Assembly: GCA_900550525.1 (NCBI GenBank)
Contig: URSN01000016.1
Span: 1 to 22,118 of the forward strand
Direction of reading: 5' to 3'
From: an uncultured Eubacteriales bacterium
GTDB taxonomy: Bacteria > Bacillota > Clostridia > Christensenellales > CAG-138
Length of the DNA stretch: 22,118 bases
The notes beneath the pieces are model-generated. The model did no database searches. It worked only from the letters and a program-made list of their open reading frames with translations, and was not told the origin of the DNA. Shown here one piece after another: positions 9,029 to 11,647 of this stretch; the first letter of the stretch is position 1; each line of letters starts with the position of its first letter. The position numbers and the translations under genes were made by a program.

Positions 9029-9238
9029 CTACCCGATGGACACGACGCGGTAGTCCTGCGCTTCGACGGCCGCCTTGAGCGTCTCGTCCGACACGGGCGC
9101 GGCCAGCGTCACTACGGCGGTGCCGTCCTCATGGCGCACGGCGGCCTCCGCCACCTCCGGCAGCGCCTCGAGCGCCTTCTTCACGCGCGCGGAGCAATGC
9201 CCGCACATCATGCCCTCGATCTTCATCGTCCTCTTCAT
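9029..9238 (-). CDS. Possible stand-alone CopZ-like copper chaperone from an internal start in copA
   Basis: An in-frame ATG at 9238 within copA would give a 69-residue protein identical to the C-terminal HMA domain: MKRTMKIEGMMCGHCSARV onward, with the copper site Cys12 and Cys15 in MCGHC. AAAGGAG (9245-9251 on the minus strand) lies 6 bases before the ATG, as good as the ribosome binding sites of the real genes here. Independent bacterial CopZ chaperones are about this size. Known precedent: E. coli copA makes a separate chaperone from its HMA domain by programmed frameshifting. Here internal initiation is the inferred mechanism. Alternatively the site is a relic of a recent copA-copZ fusion and is silent. 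Confidence 0.5.
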   Translation of the reverse strand: MKRTMKIEGMMCGHCSARVKKALEALPEVAEAAVRHEDGTAVVTLAAPVSDETLKAAVEAQDYRVVSIG

Positions 9239-11647
9239 GGGATTCTCCTTTCCTTGTGCTGATGGGTTCTGTTGTTCTTCCGCCGGGGCCGCCTGCGCAC
9301 TCGCCGGCGCCTGCTCCCCGGCCGCCGGAATCCCCCGCTCCCCGTCCGCGGCCCGCTCCCCCTGCGCGCTGCGGCGGCCGCGCCGCCGCGCCGGCCGGTC
9401 GCGCCGGTCGTCGTGCGGGCGCAGCAGGTTCAACCGCAGCGCGTTGGTCACGACGCAGAAGCTCGACAGGCTCATCGCCGCCGCGCCGAACATGGGGCTC
9501 AGCTGCCACCCCAGCGCCGGGATGAACACCCCCGCGGCCAGCGGGATGCCGATCGTGTTGTACAAAAACGCCCAGAACAGGTTCTCATGGATGTTGCGCA
9601 GCGTCGCGCGGCTCAGGCGGATGGCGGCCGGCACGTCCGTCAGGCGGCTTTTCATGAGCACCACGTCCGCCGCGTCCACGGCCACGTCCGGCCCCGCGCC
9701 GATGGCCACGCCCACGTCCGCGCGCGTGAGCGCGGGCGCGTCGTTGATGCCGTCGCCCACCATGGCGACCCTGCCCTGCCGCTGCAGGCGGCGCACGGCC
9801 TGCTCCTTGCCGCCGGGCAGCACGCCGGCGATCACCTCGTCCACGCCGGCCTGCGCGCCCACGGCGCGCGCGGTGCGCTCGTTGTCGCCGGTGAGCATGA
9901 CCACGCGCACGCCCAATCGCTTGAGCTGGCGCACGGCCTGCGCGCTCTCGGGCTTGATCGCGTCCGCCACGGCCACCATGCCCAGCAGCGCCCCGTCCCG
10001 CCCGAAGAACAGCGGCGTCCGGCCCGCGGCGGCAAGGTCCGCCGCCGCGGCGCGCAGCGCCTCCGGCACGGGCGCAAAGCCAGCCGCGAACGCCTCGCTG
10101 CCGCCAAAGAGCGTCCGCCCGTCCAGCCGCGCGGTGAGGCCGTGGCCGGGATGGGCGGCAAAGTCCGTCACCGCCGGCGCGTCCAGGCCGCGCGCCTCCC
10201 CCTCGCGCAATATGGCGCGGGCGAGCGGGTGCTCGCTCCTGCGCTCGAGCGCCAGCGCCAGCGTCAGCAGCGTCCGCTCGTCCGTCCCCGGCGCGGCGAG
10301 CACGTCCGTCACGCGCGGTTCGCCGCTGGTGATCGTGCCGGTCTTGTCGAGCGCCACGGTATCCACGCGCCCCATCTGCTCGAGCGAGACGGCCGTCTTG
10401 AACAGGATGCCGATCCTTGCGCCCACGCCGCTGCCCACCATGATCGCCACGGGCGTGGCCAGCCCCAGCGCGCACGGGCAGCTGATGACCAGCACCGACA
10501 CGCCCCGCGCCAGCGCAAAGCCCGCGTCCCGCCCCAAAAGCAGCCACGCGGCCGTGGTCGCCAGCGCAATGGCGATCACCGCCGGCACGAACACGCCGGA
10601 TACGCGGTCGGCGATCTTGGCGATGGGGGCCTTGGTCGCCGCCGCGTCGCCGACCATGCGGATGATCTGCGCAAGCGTCGTATCCTCGCCCACGCGCGTG
10701 GCCTCGCAGCGCAGAAAGCCGGACTGGTTGAGCGTCGCCGCGGAGACCTCGGCGCCCGGCTCCTTGTCCACCGGCAGGCTCTCGCCGGTGAGCGCGGCCT
10801 CGTTGACGGCGCTGGTCCCCTCGCGCACCACGCCGTCCACGGGGATGTGCTCGCCCGGCCGCACGAGGAAGATATCCCCGCGCTGCACCGCGGCCACGGG
10901 CACGACCGTCTCCGCGCCGCCGCGCACGACGGTCGCCGTCCGGGGCGCAAGGCGCATGAGCGAGCGCAGCGCGTCGGTCGTGCGGCCCTTGGCGCGCGCC
11001 TCGAGTAGCTTGCCCACGGTGATGAGCGCGAGGATCATCGCCGCGGACTCAAAATAGAACCCGTGCAGGTGCGCCGCCGCGTCCGCGCCCGCCGCCGTCA
11101 TGGCGAACAGCGCCGCCACGCTGTACCCGAACGACGCCGCGCTGCCGAGCGCCACGAGCGTATCCATGTTCGGCGCGCGGTGGATGAGCGCGCGAACGCC
11201 GCTGATGAAAAAGCGCTGGTTGACCACCATCACCGCCGCCGCAAGCAGCAGCTGCAGCAGCCCCACCGCCACCGGGTTGCCGGCAAAGAACGCCGGCAGC
11301 GGCCAGCCCCACATCGTATGCCCCATGGACACGTACATCAGCGCGAGCAGGAAGCCGAGCGACGCGAGCAGCCGGCGCAGCAGCGCGGGCGTCTCCCGGT
11401 CCTCGAGCGCGCGCTCCTGCTCCGTCGGGGCCGCCGCCTGCGCGGGCGCGTCCGCGACGCGCGCGCCGTAGCCGGCCTTCTCCACCGCCGCCACGACCGC
11501 CGCCGCGTCCGCCGTCCCCTCCACGCCCATGGAGTTGGTCAGCAGGCTCACCGTGCAGCCCGTCACCCCCGGCACGGCCGACACCGCCCTTTCCACCGCC
11601 GCGCTGCACGCCGCGCAGCTCATGCCGCTCACCTCATAGCGCCGCAT
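9029..11647 (-). CDS. copA: Copper-exporting P1B-type ATPase with N- and C-terminal HMA domains
   Basis: 872 residues. It pumps Cu(I) out of the cytoplasm using ATP. Domains in order: N-terminal HMA with GMSCAAC (Cys11, Cys14); membrane helices from about 90; actuator domain with TGES (287-290); transmembrane CPC (390-392); phosphorylation site DKTGT (Asp434); the HP dipeptide (473-474); hinge GDGIND (631-636); last helices with the Cu(I) signatures YN (696-697) and MSLSS (725-729). A charged, Ala/Gln-rich linker (about 745-803) leads to a second HMA domain with GMMCGHC (Cys815, Cys818). The ATG at 11647 has GGAGGAG 6 bases upstream. It lies 13 bases after csoR and is surely cotranscribed with it. 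The C-terminal domain has its own ribosome binding site and start (see 9029-9238). The metal is inferred from motifs and the CsoR context. Confidence 0.96.
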   Translation of the reverse strand: MRRYEVSGMSCAACSAAVERAVSAVPGVTGCTVSLLTNSMGVEGTADAAAVVAAVEKAGYGARVADAPAQAAAPTEQERALEDRETPALLRRLLASLGFLLALMYVSMGHTMWGWPLPAFFAGNPVAVGLLQLLLAAAVMVVNQRFFISGVRALIHRAPNMDTLVALGSAASFGYSVAALFAMTAAGADAAAHLHGFYFESAAMILALITVGKLLEARAKGRTTDALRSLMRLAPRTATVVRGGAETVVPVAAVQRGDIFLVRPGEHIPVDGVVREGTSAVNEAALTGESLPVDKEPGAEVSAATLNQSGFLRCEATRVGEDTTLAQIIRMVGDAAATKAPIAKIADRVSGVFVPAVIAIALATTAAWLLLGRDAGFALARGVSVLVISCPCALGLATPVAIMVGSGVGARIGILFKTAVSLEQMGRVDTVALDKTGTITSGEPRVTDVLAAPGTDERTLLTLALALERRSEHPLARAILREGEARGLDAPAVTDFAAHPGHGLTARLDGRTLFGGSEAFAAGFAPVPEALRAAAADLAAAGRTPLFFGRDGALLGMVAVADAIKPESAQAVRQLKRLGVRVVMLTGDNERTARAVGAQAGVDEVIAGVLPGGKEQAVRRLQRQGRVAMVGDGINDAPALTRADVGVAIGAGPDVAVDAADVVLMKSRLTDVPAAIRLSRATLRNIHENLFWAFLYNTIGIPLAAGVFIPALGWQLSPMFGAAAMSLSSFCVVTNALRLNLLRPHDDRRDRPARRRGRRSAQGERAADGERGIPAAGEQAPASAQAAPAEEQQNPSAQGKENPMKRTMKIEGMMCGHCSARVKKALEALPEVAEAAVRHEDGTAVVTLAAPVSDETLKAAVEAQDYRVVSIG
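9245..9251 (-). promoter_or_regulatory. Internal Shine-Dalgarno site inside copA
   Basis: AAAGGAG on the minus strand, 6 bases before an in-frame ATG (9238) at the exact beginning of the C-terminal HMA domain. It falls in the codons of the linker, where the protein sequence is otherwise low complexity. Confidence 0.6.

Follow-up and report, generated by a model that had tools for sequence, protein, structure and literature searches.

Could one copA gene of an uncultured Eubacteriales bacterium encode both a copper pump and a free CopZ-like chaperone?

Could a single bacterial gene supply a copper pump as well as a free copper chaperone for it, by means of a second start inside the same reading frame? 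The window analysed here is a stretch of 22,118 nucleotides from an uncultured Eubacteriales bacterium (contig URSN01000016.1), and its copA gene (11647..9029, minus strand) carries an in-frame ATG, preceded by a Shine-Dalgarno (SD) sequence, exactly where the C-terminal HMA domain begins. An earlier note on this DNA suggested that copA has two products, the full ATPase and a small CopZ-like protein made by internal initiation, and the conservation of the SD/ATG pair in homologues supports that suggestion. Because the site is kept in most of the related genes examined, one gene very probably yields both the pump and a free chaperone, through a copZ start retained inside a copA-copZ fusion. Direct support comes from the site itself, which is unique in the gene, from a conservation that exceeds coding need, from the low predicted structure around it and from the fact that tandem fusions usually have it at the last domain only.

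In the proposed mechanism, an ancestral copA-copZ pair would have fused in frame with the copZ start signal retained, and a single CsoR-controlled mRNA would be read twice. Ribosomes initiating at the copA start would make the pump, its C-terminal chaperone domain tethered to it; those initiating at the internal SD/ATG would make this 69-residue HMA domain alone, as a CopZ-like chaperone free in the cytosol, which would pass Cu(I) to the pump. We infer that ribosomes use the site, that the product is stable, that it binds and delivers Cu(I), and that separate genes preceded the fusion. The ratio of tethered to free domain is probably set by competition between ribosomes initiating at the internal site and ribosomes elongating through its SD.

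The internal start site and its predicted product

The copA open reading frame (ORF) is translated into 872 amino acids, which are recognised as CopA, a P1B-type copper ATPase with an HMA domain at either end, by Pfam (PF00122 and PF00702), by the NCBIfam model TIGR01511 (581.3 bits, cut-off 397) and by the motifs TGE, CPC and DKTGT at residues 287, 390 and 434, respectively. The full protein has two HMA stretches according to Pfam. The N-terminal one covers residues 4-60 (11468..11638, minus strand), and the C-terminal one is joined to the ATPase core by a variable linker (9239..9412, minus strand, start approximate). At the end of this linker stands the SD sequence AAAGGAG (9251-9245, minus strand), which is kept in homologues, followed by six bases (9244-9239) and the ATG (9238-9236), which is codon 804 of copA and is mostly ATG at homologous sites, too. 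The observation made in the earlier note, an ATG at 9238 with AAAGGAG six bases before it, is confirmed. The internal ORF runs for 69 codons to the TAG at 9031-9029, the stop codon of copA itself, and thus combines an in-frame start codon, an SD and a shared stop, as expected of a gene within a gene.

Within copA there are 22 internal in-frame ATGs, and an SD match of at least 5 nt precedes only one of them, namely that at the domain start. The GC content in 30-nt steps around this start falls from 0.83 to 0.47 at the end of the linker and rises again to 0.67, and the predicted local fold is weak, at -4.4 kcal/mol, where 20 sampled positions in the same gene average -19.8 kcal/mol. The site resembles the starts of two other genes in the window, i.e., aggaaaggagcgtatccATG of a DUF4190-like gene and aaggagcaaccggcATG of csoR. 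A point on the other side is that the underlying peptide NPSAQGKENP, recoded synonymously with the codon usage of copA, is expected to bring about an SD of at least 6 nt with a frequency of 0.77. As such a match would arise in 77% of recodings, the window sequence alone is no proof of selection, and it is the comparison across homologues that provides it.

The predicted copZ-in-copA product (9029..9238, minus strand) consists of one HMA domain, about 70 residues long, with a CxxC motif, as in CopZ/Atx1-type proteins. The size and the MCGHC site of a bacterial chaperone, which had been noticed before, are borne out by Pfam, since the HMA model (PF00403) spans residues 4-60 of the 69-mer with 55.5 bits (cut-off 24.8). 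The 69-mer also matches the solved CopZ structures 6ff2 (E 8.2e-7) and 2qif (E 2.7e-4). It scores below the cut-offs of three curated CopZ models, NF047957 (54.4 of 85 bits), NF033795 (46.3 of 91 bits) and NF033794 (43.6 of 95 bits), and is therefore named CopZ-like here and kept out of those orthologue groups. Database proteins of 69 amino acids are up to 81% identical to it, many of them on short contigs, where they could be separate genes or cut copA. In each of the 28 genomes searched with the 69-mer, the best match was the fused domain.

Conservation of the site among fused copA genes

A first contig scan yielded 80 loci, with a bias towards fused genes resembling the query; in all 80 the C-terminal HMA domain is in frame with the ATPase core and no stop codon lies between them. 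To lessen this bias, the search was extended to 147 genomes drawn evenly from a class, 58 of the nearest relative's family, 51 from a phylum, 299 and 250 of two families and 120 of another class; the names Clostridia, Lachnospiraceae, Oscillospiraceae, Synergistota and Bacilli are those inferred for the sampled groups. The loci numbered up to L282 comprise 18 separate copA-copZ pairs and 236 fused rows, of which 228 are distinct after eight duplicates were dropped, while 15 fused Bacilli loci are counted apart. Among these loci, L203-L222 were chosen as possible splits or tandems, 17 of the 20 in L223-L242 and 7 of the 20 in L263-L282 were picked for a match starting after query residue 1, and the remaining fetched regions were picked by hand over the whole score range.

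In 207 of the 228 distinct fused genes the domain opens with an ATG preceded by an SD of at least 5 nt. That is, the AAAGGAG/ATG pair, whose absence from relatives of the same domain order had been named as an outcome speaking against internal initiation, is widely retained. In particular, 187 genes have ATG with an SD of at least 6 nt, 20 have ATG with 5 nt and 4 have ATG with 4 nt; another five have GTG with at least 5 nt, and 12 are without such a site. In one of the five GTG cases (L078), the SD and GTG stand 15 codons before the Cys, and the site is treated as lost. The late-match picking enriches for loss, and hence 12 of 228 probably overstates how often the site is missing.

How much of this would the coding need alone produce? 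In a codon-aware null model the peptide is fixed and the codons are drawn from the same gene. An SD of at least 6 nt is then expected in 78.4 +/- 6.1 of the 228 genes and is observed in 190; for at least 5 nt the numbers are 131.7 +/- 6.3 and 214, respectively. If the SD has itself shaped the peptide, this null errs on the conservative side; the standard deviations understate the uncertainty because the sequences are related. The evenly drawn class sample gives a similar picture: among 48 fused genes (the 30 best and 20 weaker ones picked by hand, minus L085 and the duplicate L083), an SD of at least 6 nt is found in 42 (12.7 expected) and one of at least 5 nt in 47 (25.4 expected). As controls, an SD of at least 6 nt occurs at 69 of 4730 other in-frame ATGs, and the counts for other linker positions and for second N-terminal HMA domains are 43 of 3648 and 0 of 8, respectively. 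Compared in this way, the internal site is conserved beyond coding constraint, as the earlier note had asked of the pair relative to the linker codons.

Could the SD and ATG be a fossil, i.e., an unused leftover of a copZ that became fused, with only the fusion protein of importance, e.g., as a pump with a regulatory metal-binding domain? There are 18 separate copA-copZ pairs in the tree, and the fused or separate state needs only 4 changes on it, so that the fusion looks old and mostly single. The CopA of Archaeoglobus fulgidus also has an extra C-terminal copper site, as the window CopA has, and a regulatory function has been suggested for it (PMC7558416). However, a leftover would decay, yet 207 of 228 genes keep ATG and SD despite widely differing linkers. 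Moreover, the SD occupies all three codon registers (169, 36 and 2 of the 207 sites), and on a FastTree tree of 241 rows, where support is weak for many branches, the register has changed at least 23 times. In addition, the Lys-Glu beneath the SD is written AAG GAG in 119 of 129 cases, where 48.7 are expected. An unused relic is consequently unlikely in our view.

The SD-like sequence might also act as a pausing site, which slows the ribosomes so that the membrane part folds before the C-terminal domain, without any initiation. Its position in a linker at a domain boundary would suit such a role. However, pausing requires no start codon at a fixed distance, whereas the 214 homologous sites with an SD of at least 5 nt have ATG in 207 and GTG in 5, with no start codon in 2, and one SD-to-start spacing is shared by 158 of the 212 with a start codon. 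The spacing in the window is three bases below that common value. Moreover, SD sites are absent from the second N-terminal HMA boundaries (0/8) and from the inner boundaries of the tandem C-terminal HMA domains in L217-L221 (0/5). In all five of these tandem fusions the ATG and SD stand at the last domain only. We consider pausing without initiation to be very improbable.

For internal initiation, on the other hand, the surroundings of the site are favourable in the homologues, too. In all 207 cases the 51-nt start region is predicted to fold more weakly than 20 positions of its gene do on average (-2.0 vs -13.1 kcal/mol), and its GC content is lower in 203 of 207. It should be noted that A-rich, unstructured stretches may partly be a property of linkers.

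The embedded-site arrangement is not peculiar to the window gene and, as far as the sampled sequences reach, is common in two large families. At E <= 1e-9, 215 of the 299 genomes of the first family have a match, and 141 of the 150 matches listed lie in open frames longer than 600 aa, i.e., are probably fused, while matches occur in 153 of the 250 genomes of the second.

Lost sites, separate genes and other HMA proteins

Fused genes that have lost the site may tell whether a chaperone gene takes its place. Within the stretches examined, an adjacent downstream HMA gene is found beside 6 of 13 site-lost genes and beside 2 of 211 site-kept genes (Fisher p 2.8e-7), and in a seventh site-lost case (L266) an HMA gene lies about 300 nt downstream.

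Several observations weigh against the retained copZ start or limit its reach. The link between loss and an adjacent gene is not significant by independent pairs (3.0 same, 0.6 opposite, median p 0.625), for which there are too few pairs. With L266 counted, 6 of the 13 site-less genes still have no adjacent HMA gene in the region examined, mostly about 300 nt downstream, and L218, L279 and L283 combine the site (weak in L279 and L283) with an adjacent HMA gene. Matches occur in only 11 of 58 genomes from the nearest relative's family, where the classable loci are two fused and four separate ones, the two fused being L151, a copy of L001, and L158, which has a GTG start. Of 15 fused genes in the Bacilli sample, 11 have ATG with an SD of at least 5 nt at the last domain, L297 and L305 among them looking like near-copies. 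The Bacilli genes without the site are L286, L288, L291 and L299, and the tandem fusions among them, L286 and L299, break the last-domain rule. A separate HMA gene lies downstream of the site-less L291, and likewise of L283 with its weak site. Tightly spaced separate copA-copZ pairs are frequent in the Bacilli sample.

The locus L222, from the phylum sample, counts in favour of the internal start: its linker frame is shifted in comparison with the fused L065, so that copA stops at an ATGA overlap, and the frame of the chaperone is intact together with its AAAGGAG. In L206 the copA frame enters the chaperone region in another frame and overlaps a separate chaperone with AAAGGAGG before its ATG. 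Each is known from one assembly, and a sequencing error is possible in both. Besides, L210 encodes a CopA with three fused C-terminal HMA domains, none of them with the site, and right after its stop codon follows a separate HMA gene with AGGAGG and ATG. A divergent type of HMA protein with a CGMCE site follows copA in L078, L218, L233, L265 and L279.

A genome-wide scan (Pfam HMA at E <= 1e-6, ORFs of at most 166 aa) found another short HMA ORF, scoring under the fused domain, in 14 of 18 site-kept genomes (the four without are G003, G025, G065 and G119). Such ORFs are likewise present in 12 of 13 site-lost genomes, the exception being G450, whose adjacent HMA gene scores under the scan threshold. 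Since short HMA ORFs occur in kept and lost genomes, a genome-wide trade-off is unsupported, and we do not claim that the nested product is the sole chaperone. The idea that internal initiation makes a separate copZ unnecessary thus holds for the operon, where none lies beside copA, and does not extend to most of these site-kept genomes.

The csoR-copA operon, known systems and implications

Upstream of copA, at a distance of 13 nt, ends a csoR-like gene for a copper-sensing repressor (11661..12068, minus strand; Pfam Trns_repr_metal, 9.8e-29), whose product has RicR as its best NCBIfam match, under the RicR cut-off. A promoter TTGACA-17 nt-TATAAT (12261..12289, minus strand), known from a consensus match only (12/12), precedes csoR-copA. 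Two exact matches of a CsoR-like operator box, ATACCC-N5-GGGTAT, are found in the window, one within the promoter (12266..12282) and one at 12231..12247; 0.01 are expected, the 5-nt spacer having been chosen after the sequence was viewed, and the pattern with a 4-nt spacer has no match. The consensus itself is one that we take to be that of CsoR. In gut Firmicutes, CsoR often targets dual-site promoters (PMC4938975).

No copZ ORF was seen next to copA, which has csoR upstream and a terminator-like hairpin with tandem repeats downstream. The hairpin (8831..8862, minus strand), found by a consensus scan only, has a 14 bp stem followed by CTTTTTT. A 35-nt tandem repeat of 3.7 copies (8843-8973) overlaps it, and a 38-nt GC-rich repeat of 2.4 copies (12100-12191) lies between the promoter and the start codon of csoR. 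On the plus strand, positions 1-8700 hold what looks, by eye from the translations, like a long histidine-biosynthesis cluster adjoining copA.

The small protein might also come from a separate short transcript, made from a promoter inside copA, on which the internal SD would be used. The rpn genes of Escherichia coli partly do so (PMC10327210), and Drees 2017 speaks in its title of differential transcript formation for the copA of E. coli. However, the consensus scan of 8700-12400 for one promoter type found the csoR promoter as the sole promoter-like site on either strand (0.1 expected) and none near 9238. With this sole site ahead of csoR, the internal product, if made, should derive from the csoR-copA mRNA. 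A separate transcript, although compatible with the retained copZ start, is unlikely, and copA would remain a two-product gene under it.

The CopA(Z) protein of E. coli corresponds to the N-terminal part of CopA. The precedent invoked by the earlier note, i.e., one copA gene giving a pump and a small free HMA chaperone by frameshifting in E. coli, agrees with the literature (PMC9548414, PMC7558416). In the window copA the chaperone would instead be C-terminal, in frame and made by internal initiation. Programmed -1 frameshifting of the E. coli type, known from copA itself (PMC9548414), would make a chaperone from the N-terminal domain here as well, but no heptamer of the type searched lies near the N-terminal HMA domain of the window copA. 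The sole in-frame heptamer of that type is at codon 370, with the -1 stop 317 codons away. Such frameshifting was rejected and has hardly any chance of being the explanation.

Related mechanisms are known outside copper systems. In the RpnL/RpnS genes-within-genes, including one of C. difficile, a C-terminal domain has a ribosome-binding site and an in-frame start codon to itself and is translated separately, as predicted here, although those products are toxin and antitoxin and have been shown experimentally (PMC10327210), whereas for the window copA a pump and a chaperone are predicted from sequence. Two-polypeptide endolysins, frequent in phages of Gram-positive bacteria, also have an in-frame internal start and a shorter product with a common stop, but they are phage lysis enzymes whose parts can assemble, and no metal is transferred (PMC9430671). 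The separate copA-copZ pairs (e.g., L133, L290 and L292) have the same parts in the same order, with SD and ATG before copZ; unlike in the window copA, a stop codon lies between the genes, and the pump was found to have no HMA domain at its C-terminus. No report of a copZ initiated within copA was found in the open-access papers searched, subscription papers lying outside this search. Two-product copA by frameshifting and internal in-frame starts (rpn, endolysins) are already known, and their combination appears to be new.

What would such a nested gene mean? A 2016 study that analysed the CsoR regulon of human gut Firmicutes in metagenomes called the missing CopZ noteworthy (PMC4938975), and a nested copZ could answer that question. 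On the homologue comparison, the CopZ 'missing' from the CsoR regulon is probably nested in the 3' end of copA in many Lachnospiraceae and Oscillospiraceae and in some Bacilli and Synergistota. Such a gene, overlooked by annotation, would be under long-term selection, and its domain would be present both tethered to the pump and free, at a ratio set by internal initiation. Consequently, a simple annotation rule is suggested, namely to call the internal ORF wherever an SD and ATG precede a C-terminal HMA domain. If true, the arrangement would be a second solution, unlike the frameshifting in E. coli, for obtaining a pump and a chaperone from one gene, and it would offer a natural case for studying how starts within a translated ORF govern stoichiometry.

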